From the NCBI GenBank assembly GCA_903832875.1, contig CAILDA010000133.1:1-48140 (forward strand): a stretch of 48,140 bases of DNA, in the 5' to 3' direction. Within the stretch, counting starts at the first letter, position 1. The number at the start of each line of letters is the position of its first letter. The stretch comes from an uncultured Micrococcales bacterium. Its GTDB lineage: Bacteria > Actinomycetota > Actinomycetes > Actinomycetales > Microbacteriaceae. The translations under genes were made by a program, and so were the position numbers. Shown here one piece after another: positions 7,266 through 20,247 of this stretch. Below the pieces are notes generated by a model. The model was not told the DNA's origin. It did not search any database and was given only the letters and a program-made list of their open reading frames with translations.

Positions 7266-8392
7266 GCAACCGAACCATAAATCCACTCGACATAGAACAA
7301 ACCAATCCCAGCCATAACGAGAAGACCACAAATAATCCAGAATCTAACCACAACTGTGACTTCGTTCCAGCCTTTGAGTTCGAAGTGATGGTGCACGGGG
7401 CTCATCAAGATTATTCTTCTTGGTTTTCCAGTGGTCCACTTAGTGATCTTGTATACGCCGCGTTGCAAAATAACTGAACCAGCTTCGATTGCAAAAATTC
7501 CACCAACAAGAACTAGTAAGACTTCTGTTCTTGACAAGATAGCTAGAGCTGCAAGAGCACCACCAATACCAAGCGAACCTGAATCGCCCATGATGATTTG
7601 TGCAGGGTTGGTGTTAAACCAGAGGAAACCGATGAGAGCGCCAACAATAGCTGCTGCCACTACTGCCAAATCAAGTGGATCTCTGGTGTCATAACAATTT
7701 GGTGCAAGATTATTGATATCACAGGCCTGGTTGAATTTCCAGAAACCAATTACAGCAAAAGCACCGATGGACATAATCAAAGAACCAGTTGCAAGACCGT
7801 CCAATCCATCAGTAATGTTCACGCCATTAGAAGTGCTTACAACTAGCAAATAAATCCAGAACAGGAATGCTGCCACTCCAATCCAAATTCCAACATCTCC
7901 CCAACTCTTAGGTGCTATTTGCATTAAATCAAAACCGGTGTCCCGAAATAAAGAAACCTGAGTGGAAGCTGGAGTTAAACCAAAAACATCTTTGTTTTGC
8001 AACGAAGCCCAAGCAAAGATCGTCGCAACCACAACTTGACCTACAATTTTCAAAATTCCAGAAAGACCTGCACTCTTTTGGCTTCTTACCTTTAGGAAGT
8101 CATCTAAGAAACCAACAAGGCCAAGACCTACCATCATGAAAAGAACCAGCATTGCTGACTGAGTTGGCATCTCGCCGTTATAAGCCTTAGCTACGAAGTA
8201 AGCAGTTACCGAACTGAGAATGATCGCGATTCCACCCATGGTTGGTTTCCCGCGTTTGACTAGATGAGTTTCTGGGCCATCGACTCGAATTGGTTGCCCC
8301 CAACCCAAGCGCTTGAAGAACCAAATCAGAGTTGGTGTGAAAACTAGCGCAAAAACTAAACCTAATAAGCCAGCAAGTAGAAGAGCTCTCAT
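7262..8392 (-). CDS. mraY: Phospho-MurNAc-pentapeptide translocase MraY
   Basis: MraY transfers phospho-MurNAc-pentapeptide to undecaprenyl phosphate, making lipid I in the membrane. The 376-residue polytopic protein shows the family signatures FLDDFLK, NITDGLDGLATG, MGDSGSLGIGG and MSPVHHHFELKGW, which contain the catalytic aspartates and the histidine cluster. The ATG overlaps the murF stop (ATGA), and its own stop overlaps the murD start. The length and about ten hydrophobic segments are typical. Confidence 0.97.
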   Translation of the reverse strand: MRALLLAGLLGLVFALVFTPTLIWFFKRLGWGQPIRVDGPETHLVKRGKPTMGGIAIILSSVTAYFVAKAYNGEMPTQSAMLVLFMMVGLGLVGFLDDFLKVRSQKSAGLSGILKIVGQVVVATIFAWASLQNKDVFGLTPASTQVSLFRDTGFDLMQIAPKSWGDVGIWIGVAAFLFWIYLLVVSTSNGVNITDGLDGLATGSLIMSIGAFAVIGFWKFNQACDINNLAPNCYDTRDPLDLAVVAAAIVGALIGFLWFNTNPAQIIMGDSGSLGIGGALAALAILSRTEVLLVLVGGIFAIEAGSVILQRGVYKITKWTTGKPRRIILMSPVHHHFELKGWNEVTVVVRFWIICGLLVMAGIGLFYVEWIYGSVA

Positions 8393-9789
8393 TTGGTCTC
8401 CTCCAACAGGTCATCGCCTAGGTAACGTAAATTTGCTGACTTTGAGGATTTCACTAGAACGATTTCCTCTCCTGTAAGCATTCCACGCAGGAAGCCCAGA
8501 GCCTCGGAGATTTCATCAAAATACATTGATTCACCATCCCAAGAACCTTCTTGAGATGCACCCATATGAATAAGTTTGGCTCCAAGACCCACAACGACAA
8601 CCTGGCTTAGATTCAGACGAACCGCAATACGTCCGATAGCGTCATGTTCAACCGCACTGAACTGCCCCAGCTCTGCCATCTCACCCATCACGGCAACTGT
8701 TCTCTTGCCGCTTAGTCGGCCCAACTGAGCCAGAGTCTGCAAAGCAGCACGCATGGATTCTGGGCTTGCGTTGTAAGCATCGTTTATGACAACTAAGCCA
8801 TCTTCACGAACATGTCTTTCCATTCGCCAGCGTTCTGCCAAAACCATGTTCTCTAAAGCGGTGATGCTTGACTTTCGATCAACACCGAGCAAATCGCCAG
8901 CACTGAGAGCAGCTAATGCGTTATAGACGTGATGTTCACCGAGGATTTGCAATCTAACTGAATCCGAAGATCCATCTGGTCGATTGAAGAGAAAACTAGT
9001 CCCCTCAAGAGATAGCGTGATGTTTGTTGCTCTGTATTGCGATTTTTCATTGGTCCCAAAGCTATGAACTTTAGCCTTAGTTCTTGAAGCCATGTTTGCA
9101 ACTCTGGAATCATCAATGTTTAGAAGTGCTGTTCCAGTGCTATCCATTTCTTCGACAAGTTCGGCTTTGATGTTCTCGGTGATCTCAATGCCACCGAATT
9201 CACCAGCGTGAGCGAGACCAACCTTGAGTTCAATTCCAATATCTGGTTTACACATCTTGGTTAGGTAAGCAATACTGCCTAATCCATCAGCCCCAAGTTC
9301 AACAACCAGATACTTTGTATTCTCAGTAATTTTCAACATCGAGTAAGGAGCGCCAACTTCGTTGTTAAAAGATTCTTCAGGAGCTACAGTTTCGCCAGCT
9401 ATTGAGAGAACTTCACGCAGCATGTTCTTGGTAGTTGTTTTGCCGTTCGATCCGGTAACTCCAATTACTTGCAAGTTGCCTTTGGCTTTAACTTCTGCAA
9501 CAACGAATGCCGCTAGTAAGCCAAGTGCGTGGACTGAGTCCTTAACAACTAACTGGCTGATGGCATCATCAACTTTGTGTTCGACTATCGCTGCAACAGC
9601 ACCATTGGCAATTGCATCAGAGATAAATAGATGCCCATCGGTTACTTCCCCAGGCTTAGCAACAAAGAGCGAACCTGCTTTGACTAATCTTGAGTCGGTT
9701 TCAACAGAACTAGTTACCTGTATCTCGCCAGCGCCGATAAGTTCAGCACCAATAATCTTTGCAATTTCTTGAAGGCTCAAACTGATCAT
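8389..9789 (-). CDS. murF: UDP-MurNAc-tripeptide--D-alanyl-D-alanine ligase MurF
   Basis: MurF completes the pentapeptide by adding D-Ala-D-Ala. The 466-residue protein has an N-terminal MurE/F-type domain, the P-loop GVTGSNGKTTTKN with Lys117, the MurF-typical NNEVGAPYSML and VINDAYNASPESM motifs, and a complete C-terminal domain. Start and stop both overlap neighbours: the murE stop shares one base with the ATG (TAATG), and the murF stop overlaps mraY. Confidence 0.96.
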   Translation of the reverse strand: MISLSLQEIAKIIGAELIGAGEIQVTSSVETDSRLVKAGSLFVAKPGEVTDGHLFISDAIANGAVAAIVEHKVDDAISQLVVKDSVHALGLLAAFVVAEVKAKGNLQVIGVTGSNGKTTTKNMLREVLSIAGETVAPEESFNNEVGAPYSMLKITENTKYLVVELGADGLGSIAYLTKMCKPDIGIELKVGLAHAGEFGGIEITENIKAELVEEMDSTGTALLNIDDSRVANMASRTKAKVHSFGTNEKSQYRATNITLSLEGTSFLFNRPDGSSDSVRLQILGEHHVYNALAALSAGDLLGVDRKSSITALENMVLAERWRMERHVREDGLVVINDAYNASPESMRAALQTLAQLGRLSGKRTVAVMGEMAELGQFSAVEHDAIGRIAVRLNLSQVVVVGLGAKLIHMGASQEGSWDGESMYFDEISEALGFLRGMLTGEEIVLVKSSKSANLRYLGDDLLEETK

Positions 9790-11330
9790 TAGTAACCAGC
9801 TTCTTTGAGAGCAGCTCTAGCTTCTGCGCGGGCAGAGTATGGGGTTCTGACCCCTTCAATGTCTCTATAGTCCTGATGGCCTGGTCCTGCCCACAAAATC
9901 GCATCGCCCGGTTTCACAAGTGAAACAGCCAACCTGATAGCCGCCTCAGGAGGCGATACTTCATGTATTTCAAGTTCGGGACGGAAATTCTTAGCAGCTT
10001 CGACAAGAGCTTTTCTAATTGATGCTGGATCTTCAAAGCGAGGGTGGTGATCAGTAATCACCAAGATGTCACAACCGGCTGCAGCAACTTTAGCCATATC
10101 TGGTCGCTTTGATGCATCACGATCACCATCGGCTCCAAAGAGCATCAAAACTTTACCTGAGGTAACTTTTCTAACCGCTGCCAAAGTGTTCAAGAAAGCA
10201 TCAGGGCTGTGACCAAAGTCAACATAAACATTTGGTGCACCCTCTGGTGAAACTAATTCTGTTCGACCAGGTAGATATGCATCAATACCATTTGCAATCG
10301 CTTTGGCAATGAGTTCAAAGTTATATCCGGCAGTTACTGCCATAACTATCGCTAGACCTGCGTTAGCCGCCATGTGAGCGCCGAGAATTGGAACACTGCT
10401 GGCTAGGTATTGACCTTGAGGTCCAACAAGTTTGAACTCTGTTTTACCAGGTAGTTCGTTTGTTACTGCAACGTGCCAATCAGCTTCAATTTCGGCATGA
10501 CTTGCGATTGTCACAACCGGAACTTCACTAAGGGCAGCTACATCCTTACCAAAAGAACTATCGAGACAAATAACTGCCTTCTTTGACTTTGCTTTAGTGA
10601 AAAGTCTTGCCTTGGCTTTTAGATACTCATCGAAGCCCGCGTAATCATCAAAATGATCGTGCGAGAGATTAGTAAAGCCAGCAACATCAAAATGTATGCC
10701 ATCAACCCGTAATTGAGTTAATGCTTGAGCGGAAACCTCGATGGCAACATCCGTAACACCTTTTTCACGCATACGTGCAAGTAGTGCCTGCATCTCCGGT
10801 GACTCAGGTGTTGTTAGACGACTCACAATCACTTCTCCAGCAATGTGGCGCTCTGCTGTTGAGGTAAGACCAGTTACGCGACCTAGCTGGCGCAATAAAG
10901 CTTCAAGTAAATAACTTGTTGAGGTTTTCCCGTTGGTTCCGGTAGTTCCAAAAAGGATAGGCATGTTTCCTGGTGTATTGCCATAGACGAAAGCTGCTAG
11001 CTCCCCTAAACGTTTTCTTGGTTCTTCAAGAACTAAAACAGGAACAGAAGCGTGAGAAGCTAACTGCAAGCCAGCGCTGTCTGTAACAACTGCAACAGCA
11101 CCTAGTTCTTGAGCCTTGGCTATGAAGTTAGCGCCATGTGTCTTGATTCCAGGCATTGCAACAAAAAGATCTCCTGGTCTTAGATCTCCTGTGTTCATGC
11201 TGATGCCAGTAATTGAAACAGTTGAAGTTGCAGAATATTCCAAACCGAAGTGCCCAGCTAAGTCAGAAAGTGAAACAGGTGCAACATGCTCTGGTCTCAG
11301 AATTGGAGGAATTGACTGCTTGATTTCCAT
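9789..11330 (-). CDS. murE: UDP-MurNAc-dipeptide ligase MurE (third-residue diamino acid ligase)
   Basis: MurE adds the third residue of the stem peptide, which carries the cross-link. The 513-residue protein has the P-loop GTTGTNGKTSTSY with Lys135 and all three Mur ligase domains. The specificity loop reads DHHPRFEDP at residues 427-435 where DAP-adding enzymes have DNPR followed by a similar tail. The Asp-Asn pair is replaced by His-His while Pro and Arg remain, so the substrate need not be meso-DAP; type B peptidoglycans of Microbacteriaceae carry Lys, Orn, diaminobutyrate or homoserine at this position. The start is ATG two bases after the ftsI stop. Confidence 0.94.
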   Translation of the reverse strand: MEIKQSIPPILRPEHVAPVSLSDLAGHFGLEYSATSTVSITGISMNTGDLRPGDLFVAMPGIKTHGANFIAKAQELGAVAVVTDSAGLQLASHASVPVLVLEEPRKRLGELAAFVYGNTPGNMPILFGTTGTNGKTSTSYLLEALLRQLGRVTGLTSTAERHIAGEVIVSRLTTPESPEMQALLARMREKGVTDVAIEVSAQALTQLRVDGIHFDVAGFTNLSHDHFDDYAGFDEYLKAKARLFTKAKSKKAVICLDSSFGKDVAALSEVPVVTIASHAEIEADWHVAVTNELPGKTEFKLVGPQGQYLASSVPILGAHMAANAGLAIVMAVTAGYNFELIAKAIANGIDAYLPGRTELVSPEGAPNVYVDFGHSPDAFLNTLAAVRKVTSGKVLMLFGADGDRDASKRPDMAKVAAAGCDILVITDHHPRFEDPASIRKALVEAAKNFRPELEIHEVSPPEAAIRLAVSLVKPGDAILWAGPGHQDYRDIEGVRTPYSARAEARAALKEAGY

Positions 11331-11332
11331 GA

Positions 11333-13081
11333 TTACCAGTTTGTCGCTAACTTCTTAGATTTAGTTGTAGAGGGGTGCACTGCGTAAGTCTTGAGCACCT
11401 GTTTCATGACAGATACGAACCCAGGGGTAGCACCAAGTGAGTTGCTAACAGTCCTTGATTTATATGCAGTGACCGCAACAATAAATTGCGGATCTTCAGC
11501 TGGAGCAATACCTACGAATGAAACCGCGTGAAGTCTTCCATAACCTTTACCTTCGGCAATCTGAGCTGTGCCAGTTTTACCACCAACTCGATATCCCTGG
11601 ATACGGGCTGTTCTTCCAATAGGTCCCTGCTCAACAACTTTTTCTAGCATGTCCATAGTTAGTGATGCACTTGTTTCGCTGATTACCCTAACTGGAGCTT
11701 CTACAGCTGTCTTGGTGGTGTTGCCATCTTTATCGCGGCAACCGTCAACCAGGATCGGTGACAAGCGAACACCCTTGTTGGCAATCGCTTGGTAAATTCC
11801 TGCGGTTTGAATTGGGGTTAGTGAAACTCCCTGTCCGAACATAACAACTTTGTCAGTCATCTTGTCCCAGGTTTTGTAATTGGAAAGCTGTCCTGAAGAT
11901 TCACCTTCAAAGTTCACTCCACTGCGAGAGCCCATACCGAATTTTTTCATGTATTCATAACGAGTCGCGCTATCAACCTTGCCACCGATCTGAACGAGAC
12001 CTGTGTTTGAGGAAACTTTCAGAACACCAGTAAGGGTAAGTTTTTCTGGGGCGTGAATTTCTGAGTCGTTGATGTATTGACCCCAAGGCATACGCAACCT
12101 ATCTGGCGCAGTAACTCTGGTTAGAGGAGTTGCTTTGCCATCGTCGATTGCCGTTGCAGCGGCAACGGCCTTAAGAATCGAACCAGGTTCGAAAGCTGAT
12201 TGAAAGATTCTGGTGTGTCTGTTCTGCTCTGCAACTGCGCCAGGACGATTTGGATCAACTGAAGGTGCTTCTGCAGCGGCAAGAATTCTTCCTGTTTTAG
12301 CTTCAATCACAATTGCGCTCGCCCAGTCAGCTTTCAATCTTCTAACCGTTGCAGCCATCTCCTGCTGAGCGGCATACTGCAAATCTGAGTTGATTGTGAG
12401 AACCACATCAGAGCCATCTCTTACCGGTGTAATTGTTCTAACCGAGGATGGGATTTTAATAAGGTCAGCACCTTGTTCATATATCTCTCGGCCATCAGTT
12501 CCAGCCAAGCAAGAGTTCATCATTCGTTCGATGCCAGCCAGAGCAGAACCATCGGAACCGACGAAACCAATAAGGTTGCCGGCAACTGCTCCATCTGCAT
12601 AATGCCTTGATTGTTTTCTATCGAAGTAAATCCAAGGAATGTCTAGGTTCTTAAGTGTCGTGTATGAAGATGCGCTCACTGACTTCTTTAGATTCGCATA
12701 GCGGCCAAGTCCAGTCATCTTGCTCAGAATGCTTTCGGTTGGAATACGCAGTATCCCCGCGATTTTTTCAGCAATTTGTTCTTTGGTGAAAGAGACTTTT
12801 TGATCGTTAATGGTTAGAACAACTGGACCTACGTTAACCGGGTCAATGTTCACATCCCAACTAAATGATGTGGTTGCCAGAATGTGCCCTTCACTGTCAA
12901 CAATGTTTCCACGAACAGCTTCGATGTTGCGCTCAACAAGACGAGCCTTAAGAGATTCAGCGTTGATTTCAGGTGCAGCTATGACTTGGAACCAAGCTAA
13001 ACGCCCAAAGAATAGAACCAGGATCAGCAAGACGATGCCGTTGAAACGTCTTTGACGTCTGTCTAGCTCATCTTGGTCCAT
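11333..13081 (-). CDS. ftsI: Septal penicillin-binding protein FtsI (class B PBP)
   Basis: FtsI is the septal DD-transpeptidase that cross-links new peptidoglycan. The 582-residue protein has an N-terminal membrane anchor (about 14-32), a dimerisation domain, and a transpeptidase domain with the three penicillin-binding motifs in order: SILK (active Ser301, Lys304), SSN (357-359) and KTG (502-504). No PASTA domains follow. It is partner to FtsW in the same operon. The ATG at 13081 lies 19 bases after the ftsL stop. Confidence 0.97.
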   Translation of the reverse strand: MDQDELDRRQRRFNGIVLLILVLFFGRLAWFQVIAAPEINAESLKARLVERNIEAVRGNIVDSEGHILATTSFSWDVNIDPVNVGPVVLTINDQKVSFTKEQIAEKIAGILRIPTESILSKMTGLGRYANLKKSVSASSYTTLKNLDIPWIYFDRKQSRHYADGAVAGNLIGFVGSDGSALAGIERMMNSCLAGTDGREIYEQGADLIKIPSSVRTITPVRDGSDVVLTINSDLQYAAQQEMAATVRRLKADWASAIVIEAKTGRILAAAEAPSVDPNRPGAVAEQNRHTRIFQSAFEPGSILKAVAAATAIDDGKATPLTRVTAPDRLRMPWGQYINDSEIHAPEKLTLTGVLKVSSNTGLVQIGGKVDSATRYEYMKKFGMGSRSGVNFEGESSGQLSNYKTWDKMTDKVVMFGQGVSLTPIQTAGIYQAIANKGVRLSPILVDGCRDKDGNTTKTAVEAPVRVISETSASLTMDMLEKVVEQGPIGRTARIQGYRVGGKTGTAQIAEGKGYGRLHAVSFVGIAPAEDPQFIVAVTAYKSRTVSNSLGATPGFVSVMKQVLKTYAVHPSTTKSKKLATNW

Positions 13082-17447: not shown

Positions 17448-18422
17448 ATGACAACAGGCCCTGAAAACCCGATTCGACTAGGCCAATCAGGCCTACCCGG
17501 AAACGCTGCACCTAGCTCCAAGAGCGTTTCCCCTGCAGAATCTGCACTACTGCATCTGGTTACCCCAGGTCAGAATTTGGCTGTAATTGCCGCAGTGCAT
17601 GGGTTATCTCTTGCAGAACTGACTAAGGCCAATGGGCTGACAGAGCAATCCCTAATTTTCCCAGGCCAAAAACTCATTATTCCTATCCCCCTTTCAGAGG
17701 AACTAGAAATTAAAGCTCCAACTGAACATTTGGTGGCTTTAGGTGAGAGCATCTTTGCAATTGCTGCTCGATTTGGGATAAGCGTTACTCTCTTACAGAA
17801 ACTAAACAATCTAAGCGATAGCTCAATACTTTTCCCCGGTACAAAACTAAAACTTGTTGAAGATAAAATTCCAGACACCACAAATCATCCTGCCAAGTTC
17901 GCCAGAGCTTTCCCAGCTCATTGTTTGGTGCACGGATACCACGTGGTTAGAACTGGTGATCAACCAAGCCGGGTTGCTGCATTCCATGGAGTTAGCACAC
18001 AAGCACTGCTTACTGCCAATGACATGAGTTGGAATGCCACTTTCTATGAAGGGCAAAAACTAATTGTGCCCATTTCACATGGTCTATTGAACTGCCCTGC
18101 TCTAGTAAAACTGACTCCTAACTCCTTTGGGACAGCTCAAAAGTATTTCCAAGTTGCTAAAGAACAAGATGCCAGCGATTATTTGATAGTGAATGCTTTT
18201 TGCTTAGAGATGCAGCGCTCAGGTCTAGTGCCTGAGTTTGGAGTTTTGGCTGCAGCAAAAGAATTAGTTAGAAAGTTAACCTTGGTCTTCGGTTTTGAAA
18301 CTCTCAGCGTGAAGCAAGCTTTGACTCAAGCCGGTTTTGAAGAATTAGCGGCTGGCGCTTCACTTTGGGAAGCTTCAGCTTGGGGCTGGCTAGTGGAAGT
18401 AAGGGCATACGAAAATGTCTAA
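17448..18422 (+). CDS. Triple-LysM protein without visible export signal
   Basis: The 324-residue protein has three LysM repeats (about 36-81, 92-137 and 163-208), which bind N-acetylglucosamine-containing glycans such as peptidoglycan, and a C-terminal region (about 211-324) of predicted helices that I do not recognise. There is no signal peptide, lipobox or membrane segment, and an in-frame stop at 17421 rules out a longer N terminus. It overlaps the PASTA kinase gene by eight bases, so the two are probably co-translated and linked in cell-wall sensing. How it would reach the wall is unclear. No enzymatic domain is evident. Confidence 0.85.
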   Translation: MTTGPENPIRLGQSGLPGNAAPSSKSVSPAESALLHLVTPGQNLAVIAAVHGLSLAELTKANGLTEQSLIFPGQKLIIPIPLSEELEIKAPTEHLVALGESIFAIAARFGISVTLLQKLNNLSDSSILFPGTKLKLVEDKIPDTTNHPAKFARAFPAHCLVHGYHVVRTGDQPSRVAAFHGVSTQALLTANDMSWNATFYEGQKLIVPISHGLLNCPALVKLTPNSFGTAQKYFQVAKEQDASDYLIVNAFCLEMQRSGLVPEFGVLAAAKELVRKLTLVFGFETLSVKQALTQAGFEELAAGASLWEASAWGWLVEVRAYENV

Positions 18423-20247
18423 CCTTGAAGGCATTACGTTAGCTGATCGCTATCAAATAACTGAGGTTATCGCTCGCGGTGGCATGGCAACTGTTTATCT
18501 TGGTAAGGACATCCGTCTAGATCGTCAAGTTGCAATCAAGATTATTCATCCCCACCTTTCAGATGATCCTGTGTTTAGAGACAAGTTCTTTAGAGAAGCA
18601 AGAATGCTAGCAAAGGTAGCGCATTCAAATTTGGTAAATATTTTTGACCAGGGTGATGACCAAGATCATGCCTTCATTGTTTTGGAATTGGTTGAAGGTA
18701 TTACTCTTCGAGATGCTTTGAAGAACTTTGGCTCGTTGCGTTCGGAACAAATAGTGCAGGTCTCGAGAGCTGTGCTATCTGCCTTAGCTCAGGCACATCA
18801 GAATGGAATTGTTCACAGAGATCTCAAACCAGAGAACATACTGCTCGCCGATGACGGCAGAATCAAGGTCACTGACTTTGGTTTAGCTCGAGAACTAACA
18901 GCTAGTACAGATACTGGTTCGCTCGTTGGGACAGTGGCATATCTCGCCCCAGAAGTAATAAAACGAGGCAAAGCTGAAACTGCAAGTGATGTTTACAGCT
19001 TTGGAATATTGCTCTTTGAAATGCTGACCGGTAAACAGCCGTTCCCCGGTGATGATGCGATGCAAATTGCTTTCCGGCACACAACAGAGCGTGTTCCATC
19101 CGCTAAAACCATAAATCCACAAGCTGATACAGCTTTGAATGATTTGATGATTTGGTGCACCGAGCCGCTTGTTGAAAACAGGCCAAATAACGCATACCTA
19201 GCCTTGGCCCATTTAGATAAGTTCTCCGGCAAGGCAAAGACTAATTCTGAAGATCTCGCTCAAACACTTTTGCTATCCGAACAAATCCCTCAAGAGGGCT
19301 TTACCGAAGTTTTAGCTGACCTAGAAAGCCCTGACCAACCAAAACCTTTTGCTAAGTTTTCTTCCAAACTTTTAGCAACTAGATGGCTGGTAGCAAGTCT
19401 TATCGCAGTCAGCGCAGGATCTTTCGGTGGTTGGTATTACGGATCTGGTCCAGGCGCTTTGTTGGCTATTCCTAGCATCACGGATAAGAATCAAAGCCAA
19501 GCCACTGCTCTTCTAACTCCCCTAACTGAAAACATAACCATAAGAAAAGTCTTCAGCAGCACATTCACAGAAGGACAGGTTATTGGTTCTGAACCCGGTG
19601 CTGGTGTTTTAGTTCCTCGAGGCATGAACATCACCATTCTGGTTTCCAAAGGAAAAGAGTATGTTGCTGTTCCAGCACTCCAAGGACTTGACCTAGTTAC
19701 CGCAACAGCAAAAATAATTGGAGCCAGATTAGCCGTTGGAAAGGTATCTGAATGGTTTAATGCTGAGCACCCAATTGGCACGGTTTATAACTATTCAGGT
19801 GAAGATGGCACCGAGCTTGCCGTTGCATCTGGAGTTGATCTAAAAGTTTCCTTGGGTGCAATTCCCGTTGTTGCAGGCTTCCCTAAGAATGTTGCCAAGG
19901 CCGCCTTGGAAGCTGCTGGACTAAACGTACGCGTAGTCGCATCTAAATATTCAAGTAGCGTCGCTAAAGGGCAAGTTATTGCTGTAGTTCCAGACGAACC
20001 TGAAATAGGCAAAGGATCTTCAATCAAACTAGTTGTGAGCCTCGGCCCTGAAACTGTGAAGATGCCTCAGGTCAAAGGTGAAACTATTTTGGCGGCTAAA
20101 TCACTGCTCGAATCATTGGGCTTGAAAGTAATCATCGATACCAAGTGGCTCACCAAAGATTATGGAATTAAGCGCATTACAGGTGCAAGCGAAACTGCGG
20201 GAGCAACTCTCAAAGTTGGACAGAGTGTAACTATCAGATCTCGCTAG
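18415..20247 (+). CDS. pknL: Ser/Thr protein kinase with four PASTA domains (PknL-like)
   Basis: This is a membrane Hanks-type kinase that couples extracellular wall fragments to phosphorylation inside the cell. The 610-residue protein has an intact kinase domain (about 13-270): P-loop ARGGMATVY, Lys42, HRDLKPEN with Asp136, and DFG 154-156. One membrane segment follows (about 321-340), then four PASTA repeats to the C terminus. By position beside the prenyl synthase, Rv2175c-like and DAHP synthase genes it corresponds to mycobacterial PknL, although PknB-type kinases also carry PASTA repeats and PknB was not seen in this window. It overlaps the LysM gene by eight bases and ends three bases from convergent aroG. 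Confidence 0.95.
   Translation: MSNLEGITLADRYQITEVIARGGMATVYLGKDIRLDRQVAIKIIHPHLSDDPVFRDKFFREARMLAKVAHSNLVNIFDQGDDQDHAFIVLELVEGITLRDALKNFGSLRSEQIVQVSRAVLSALAQAHQNGIVHRDLKPENILLADDGRIKVTDFGLARELTASTDTGSLVGTVAYLAPEVIKRGKAETASDVYSFGILLFEMLTGKQPFPGDDAMQIAFRHTTERVPSAKTINPQADTALNDLMIWCTEPLVENRPNNAYLALAHLDKFSGKAKTNSEDLAQTLLLSEQIPQEGFTEVLADLESPDQPKPFAKFSSKLLATRWLVASLIAVSAGSFGGWYYGSGPGALLAIPSITDKNQSQATALLTPLTENITIRKVFSSTFTEGQVIGSEPGAGVLVPRGMNITILVSKGKEYVAVPALQGLDLVTATAKIIGARLAVGKVSEWFNAEHPIGTVYNYSGEDGTELAVASGVDLKVSLGAIPVVAGFPKNVAKAALEAAGLNVRVVASKYSSSVAKGQVIAVVPDEPEIGKGSSIKLVVSLGPETVKMPQVKGETILAAKSLLESLGLKVIIDTKWLTKDYGIKRITGASETAGATLKVGQSVTIRSR

Follow-up and report, generated by a model that had tools for sequence, protein, structure and literature searches.

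A paired HHPR and Gln486 signature points to L-homoserine addition by a MurE of Microbacteriaceae

The MurE ligase encoded in the window (the whole stretch of DNA analysed, 48,140 nucleotides) probably joins L-homoserine, and not DAP or Lys, to UDP-MurNAc-dipeptide. The best explanation of the sequence classes found across its family, the Microbacteriaceae, is that enzymes combining HHPR (in place of DNPR) with Gln486 add homoserine, and that those combining Phe or Tyr at position 428 with Glu486 add diaminobutyrate (Dab). This assignment, inferred by combining the wall chemistry of named relatives with what is known of the residues' roles, is the most likely one; by the features tested, the window enzyme is neither DAP-type nor of the S. 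aureus Lys type. The possibility of L-homoserine or L-Dab as third residue has already been published (PMC3681970; PMC12844806), and a literature search of open-licence papers found, in their available text, no explanation of what determines the choice between the two in MurE.

The murE gene and its locus

Three genes of the window define the immediate context:

8389..9789, minus strand: murF, directly downstream of murE in the dcw cluster (TIGR01143, 357.1 bits, cut-off 288.6)
9789..11330, minus strand: murE, UDP-MurNAc-tripeptide synthetase, 513 aa (TIGR01085 and three Mur-ligase Pfam domains)
11333..13081, minus strand: transpeptidase gene (ftsI/PBP2 type), adjacent to murE on its upstream side (no model above its cut-off)

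By family, the window protein is MurE: it scores 361.8 bits against the TIGR01085 murE model (cut-off 257.3), and PF01225, PF08245 and PF02875 are all above their cut-offs in a Pfam search. The dcw (division/cell wall) cluster reads, in transcription order, mraZ, rsmH, a small gene, the transpeptidase gene, murE, murF, mraY, murD, ftsW, murG and murC, where MraZ, FtsW, MurG and the transpeptidase are model matches below curated cut-offs; murE sits between the transpeptidase gene and murF, a placement expected of a MurE. A profile search of the source genome (a draft, 88% complete) identified this protein as its sole MurE, the two remaining matches being MurC and MurF. The gene encodes the housekeeping MurE of a freshwater member of the Microbacteriaceae that resembles Rhodoluna. 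Within a few kilobases of this cluster, at 18415-20247 of the window, a PASTA-domain Ser/Thr kinase (PknB type) is encoded.

Among the NCBIfam models, a DAP-ligase model gives the highest score, and this, together with the retention of Arg431 of the DNPR motif, would suit a standard meso-DAP ligase carrying a neutral variant of the motif. That the window protein is such an enzyme is nevertheless hardly credible, as its 436 bits against the DAP equivalog PRK00139.1-2 fall below the cut-off of 476 and the ligand residues Asn and Glu are missing. Against NF010628, which describes the L-Lys-adding type, the score is 218.3 bits for a cut-off of 536.

Specificity loop and coupled sites

The residues considered are the following:

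9873..9875, minus strand: Gln486, replacing E. coli Glu468 and S. aureus Glu460 (M. tuberculosis MurE alignment; roles from PMC3829189)
10026..10052, minus strand: third-residue specificity loop, aa 427-435 DHHPRFEDP, in place of DNPR (translation and alignment)
10044..10049, minus strand: His428-His429, replacing the Asp-Asn of DNPR (translation and alignment)
10119..10121, minus strand: Arg404 of GDRD, conserved (alignment and family table)
10215..10217, minus strand: Phe372, replacing the Tyr of VDYAH, the third class-linked site (family comparison)

The first-pass annotation had read the loop as D-H-H-P-R followed by FEDP, with Pro-Arg kept and Asp-Asn replaced by His-His, and translation of the minus-strand gene agrees with that reading. 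In the alignment with M. tuberculosis MurE (2wtz), D-D-N-P-R-D-E-D-P stands opposite D427-H-H-P-R431-F-E-D-P of the window protein, which places DNPR opposite His428-His429-Pro430-Arg431. Two changes go beyond that annotation: the Glu partner of the motif Asp is Gln486, the AGKGHE loop reading AGPGHQ in the same alignment, and the Tyr of VDYAH is Phe372. Arg404 of GDRD is presumably the alpha-carboxylate ligand.

In DAP enzymes, as described in the available text of PMC3829189, the far carboxylate is bound by the Asn and Arg of DNPR, and an amine-binding role is assigned to the motif Asp and Glu468. The same source reports that S. aureus MurE holds the Lys epsilon-amine mainly through Glu460, Asp406 and one backbone carbonyl, and that the D406A and E460A variants lose most activity. 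Set beside the meso-DAP enzymes of M. tuberculosis (2wtz) and E. coli (1e8c), the window MurE shares the family, the GDRD Arg and, in the 2wtz alignment, the motif Pro-Arg, but it carries His-His for Asp-Asn, Gln for Glu468 and Phe for the VDYAH Tyr, and so has neither the DNPR nor the Glu468 equivalent of meso-DAP-adding enzymes. The S. aureus L-Lys enzyme (4c12) adds a non-DAP residue, as proposed here for the window MurE, but 4c12 retains Asp406 and Glu460 and carries Ala at the Arg position (DNPA), whereas the window protein has lost both acids (His428, Gln486) and kept the Arg (HHPR; PMC3829189). The Thermotoga maritima enzyme (4bub) is alike in its retained Arg, its non-DNPR motif (DDPR in Thermotoga) and VDF-HSPDA, but differs in keeping Asp and Glu. 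Since both acids are missing in the window MurE, a neutral residue is favoured and a cationic side chain (Lys, Orn, DAP) disfavoured.

At aa 198-204 (window 10719-10739), the protein reads EVSAQAL instead of the usual EVSSHAL, as do most family proteins tabulated; this could relate to the glycine at position 1 of group-B walls, Mur-Gly being described for R. lacicola (PMC4156110).

Survey of the family

The comparison drew on 129 further proteins (L004-L132) from 150 family genomes, taken from among the matches listed and not from every match, and on a DNA-pattern scan of named genomes for the GADGDRD stretch. The scan gave at least 120 loci; of those listed, 117 encode a MurE-like protein, and two of these 117 come from other taxa. 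It under-samples proteins that lack the stretch. Removal of L156, L163 and L211 (no MurE) and of L157 and L159 (other taxa) left 245 proteins; with 16 partial ones (<440 aa) set aside, 229 full-length proteins remained, 226 of them different.

Among the matches listed, DNPR occurs in none of the 229 full-length proteins and HHPR in 123, which makes HHPR a lineage feature and not a sequencing accident. His428 and Gln486 are combined in 109 of these 229 listed rows (with Phe372 in 106 and Ser372 in 3), and Phe or Tyr428 with Glu486 and Tyr372 in 80; the remaining 40 include HHPR with Lys, Thr or Leu486, and four end before position 486. In the His/Gln class, the two acidic residues by which Lys and DAP enzymes hold the side-chain amine, the motif Asp and the loop Glu, have become His and Gln, and the neighbouring Tyr has become Phe, while the sister class keeps Glu486 and Tyr372 and replaces the motif Asp by Phe or Tyr. 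The perfect separation of 428 and 486 arises by construction, as the classes are defined by these two positions. What does not arise by construction is the absence of any His428/Glu486 or Tyr428/Gln486 row among the 229 matches listed, where the single mixed row (Phe/Gln, L130) is a degenerate gene. In Microbacteriaceae, sites 428, 486 and 372 move together.

HHPR had been taken as a sign of an altered third residue. This stands for the pair HHPR plus Gln486 and falls for HHPR alone, which was rejected as a marker: Labedella L197, Curtobacterium L134 and Rathayibacter L249, the last two being extra copies, combine HHPR with Lys or Thr486. The marker is the pair. The L249 copy (HHPR/Thr) lies outside the dcw cluster.

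Codon patterns were scanned beyond the family, using CGN arginine codons only, so that they under-count. The exact pattern for T-D-H-H-P-R-x-E matches 9 of the 198 genomes sampled from the order, every one belonging to Microbacteriaceae (a family with 14 of the listed rows), and 3 of the 296 sampled from the phylum, namely the source genome, one family member and one outsider, whose match is not in a MurE frame. The DNPRxED pattern is found in 74 of the 198 order genomes and in none of the 14 listed family rows. An HHPR-bearing DAP-type MurE, which would have spoken against the first-pass annotation, was thus not encountered outside the family in these sampled genomes.

Thirteen of 14 further-searched family genomes yielded 13 additional murE-model matches above cut-off, of which L304 repeats L084; the other 12 are distant proteins outside the 229, and L307 repeats no surveyed protein. 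Eleven distant MurE proteins (L295-L303, L305, L306), from genomes G003, G005, G018, G019, G024, G058, G059, G082, G088, G099 and G145, show 22-34% identity to the window MurE. Eight of them have a DDVH motif and three have others, SSHAL is present in most, and no dcw neighbours were found in the flanking stretches examined. The MurE of G128, a genome of the same genus as G059, coincides with the Aurantimicrobium protein (YHPR/Glu); set against the distant MurE of G059, this suggests whole-gene replacement. Genome G068 (L313, L312) has a degenerate murE in its dcw cluster (FPPG, GDRD lost) and an intact solo HHPR/Gln copy, as if one substrate class had been replaced by the other.

Wall chemistry and site class

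In group-B walls, the cross-link runs via D-Glu at position 2, and residue 3 can therefore do without an amine; in the scheme of Schleifer and Kandler, type B2beta is said to carry L-homoserine at position 3. The D-Lys or D-Orn of Frigoribacterium and Frondihabitans belongs to the bridge, which counts against Lys or Orn as the residue added by the window's class.

Rhodoluna is the nearest named genus to the window organism. The wall of Rhodoluna lacicola contains homoserine and a D-Ala-D-Dab peptide and is of type B2beta (PMC4156110). Per Glu, homoserine amounts to only 0.4 and Dab to 0.8 (PMC4156110); the homoserine value below 1 could reflect hydrolysis losses or a mixed residue 3. The hydrolysate list in the available part of PMC4156110 is without Lys, Orn, DAP, Ser or Thr, which further weakens the meso-DAP reading. 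Losing both acids would suit any side chain without positive charge, and the window enzyme might on that ground add a different small residue, either neutral or acidic (Ala, Ser, Thr, Glu); with homoserine on the Rhodoluna list, and Ser and Thr missing from it, this is most improbable. Among the organisms compared, R. lacicola is the only one for which the available sources report homoserine in its own wall (PMC4156110). Type B2beta is also assigned to Frigoribacterium (D-Lys) and Frondihabitans (Orn, D-Orn) (PMC7033078, PMC5945732). All five proteins from these three genera (L215, L241, L218, L227, L209) are His/Gln, and the MurE is the sole one in each of the four genomes searched (those of L215, L241, L227 and L209); L218 comes from a MAG bearing the name Frigoribacterium and does not group with L227.

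Four other genera have B2gamma walls: Agromyces aureus with D-Glu-L-Dab (PMC5217419), Herbiconiux with D- and L-Dab (PMC10011130), Subtercola vilae with 1.7 Dab per unit (PMC5945732) and Cryobacterium with Dab (PMC7033078). Their proteins are FHPR/Glu, and MurE is the sole copy in the one genome searched per genus. This proposed Dab class resembles the window MurE in belonging to Microbacteriaceae, in about 50-55% identity, in lacking DNPR and in its GPGH loop; it differs in having Phe/Tyr428, Glu486 and Tyr372 against His, Gln and Phe. The comparison of motif with known peptidoglycan type, which had been proposed as a check, therefore sets B2beta genera with His/Gln apart from B2gamma genera with Phe/Glu: the seven genera with a published type and one MurE split 3:4 with no exception, although the sample is small, the genera are related, and most of the chemistry was determined in other species of the same genus. 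When sets are defined by wall type (5 B2beta rows against 13 Dab-genus rows), eight sites tell them apart, each with one residue throughout the first set and another throughout the second (138, 353, 372, 428, 480, 486, 490 and 503).

These results bear out the earlier expectation of a non-DAP third residue in a type B wall of Microbacteriaceae, through the residue losses, the class of the Dab genera and the homoserine of Rhodoluna. Of the candidates put forward then (Lys, Orn, Dab, homoserine), homoserine is favoured by the loss of both acids, the Rhodoluna wall and the Phe/Tyr plus Glu of Dab genera, and the others are disfavoured. An enzyme adding L-Lys or L-Orn through a re-drawn amine site is very unlikely: Microbacteriaceae with Lys or Orn walls exist (PMC7033078, PMC10757982), Salinibacterium among them (Lys and Orn listed, PMC7033078), and the Salinibacterium MAG protein L138 is His/Gln, but the Asp and Glu needed for most of the S. 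aureus Lys-adding activity are both gone (PMC3829189) and neither amino acid is on the Rhodoluna list. L-Dab, or a mixture of Dab and homoserine, is likewise an unlikely product, though one that the 0.8 Dab per Glu in the R. lacicola wall speaks for (PMC4156110); in this case the His pair would merely replace Asp, and the class difference would be lineage drift. Against it, the Dab-walled genera retain the Glu486 and Tyr372 that the window's class has lost, and the D-Ala-D-Dab peptide from R. lacicola places Dab in the bridge (PMC4156110).

Several genomes carry their MurE outside the dcw cluster or have more than one. In Rathayibacter soli, Dab is listed and homoserine is not in the available text of PMC11294650. 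The Rathayibacter dcw copies L240 and L243 are FHPR/Glu, as are the dcw copies L261 (which coincides with L240) and L263; L155, L158 and L206 are HHPR/Gln copies of Rathayibacter. Five named Rathayibacter genomes have two to three MurE matches each, one genome having a copy in two pieces. Outside the dcw cluster lie the His/Gln copies L155 (Rathayibacter), L262 and L264 (both from genomes with a Rathayibacter-like dcw copy), and such non-cluster copies of Rathayibacter may be alternative enzymes. The five Microbacterium genomes searched have a single MurE, outside the cluster (four HHPR/Gln, one QHPR/Gln). At two Microbacterium loci, L137 and L142, murE lies outside the cluster and beside dxr, and the genome of L137 gave no second MurE match. 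The diamino acids given for Microbacterium are D-Orn, L-Lys or Dab (PMC10757982).

TIGR00709 (dat, Dab synthesis) is above cut-off in 28 of the 150 family genomes and, in a hand tally by class, accompanies 15 of 51 Phe/Tyr plus Glu proteins against 4 of 52 HHPR plus Gln proteins (window included). The window's genome and the two congeneric genomes sampled besides it (L004, L005) gave no dat match above cut-off. As the R. lacicola wall holds Dab all the same (PMC4156110), dat is an unreliable marker and was dropped as independent evidence of Dab.

Phylogeny and class switches

The window MurE groups with Rhodoluna L215 and L241 (71.8 and 73.3% identity), to which L004 and L005 show 79.5-86.7% identity. 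In a FastTree tree built without the columns of either loop, position 428 undergoes only three changes between His and Phe/Tyr; the class thus mostly tracks clades, as lineage drift in a Dab-adding enzyme would have it. An independence test yielded three independent pairs differing at 428, with which a sign test cannot reach 0.05. With so few pairs, the coupling rests on L046, L096 and the chemistry, not on a p value.

A second tree (IQ-TREE, 83 rows) also excluded the 372 region besides both loops. Here L046 (genome G075, Tyr/Glu/Tyr) is nested with 15 His/Gln rows (SH-aLRT 100), its nearest row being L024, an HHPR/Gln protein of the same genus, and a topology uniting the Phe/Tyr rows in one clade is rejected (p-AU 0.0055). 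Of the 30 most class-informative sites in L046, 19 agree with the His class, six with the Phe/Tyr class (372, 428, 486, 490, 496 and 459) and five with neither. L046 is a flip from His/Gln to Tyr/Glu/Tyr. L096 has the Phe/Tyr-class state at five of the same sites (372, 428, 486, 490, 496; of these, 490 and 496 were picked post hoc) and is mixed overall, with 14 Phe/Tyr-like, 10 His-like and six neither among the 30; the other sampled member of its genus, L042, is HHPR/Gln. It is placed less firmly than L046, outside the main His/Gln group of the 83-row tree, and may have kept an older state or had its gene replaced, not switched in place. All four genes (L046, L024, L096, L042) are located in the dcw cluster. 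The opposite state of L046 and L096 at the five sites argues against drift in an L-Dab-adding enzyme.

Proposed substrate selection and its significance

The His428/Gln486 pair common to the B2beta genera is present in the window MurE, and homoserine addition can be pictured from the published residue roles on which the pocket geometry is based (PMC3829189). In both classes, a bulky residue 428 would shorten the pocket for a four-carbon amino acid. Glu486 of the Phe/Tyr class would then hold the gamma-amino group of Dab, and Gln486 and His428 of the window's class would hydrogen-bond the neutral hydroxyl of homoserine, a cation being no longer favoured. The homoserine reading has its limits, as residue 3 could be partly Dab in Rhodoluna (0.4 homoserine against 0.8 Dab per Glu). 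The non-cluster His/Gln copies of Rathayibacter, whose wall contains Dab, and the His/Gln protein L138 of Salinibacterium also count against it.

A more far-reaching and tentative possibility is that 372, 428 and 486, with 490 and 496, form a compact substrate code that has switched between homoserine and Dab on more than one occasion, and that certain genera, chiefly Rathayibacter, retain both enzymes and could change residue 3 on demand. If homoserine addition by the HHPR/Gln486 class is right, wall type would become readable from sequence, even where the freshwater actinobacteria concerned are uncultured, and a few point mutations would put the specificity of this essential ligase to the test. 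A homoserine-type MurE would also make a long-known but unexplained wall type recognisable by a simple marker in the sequence.
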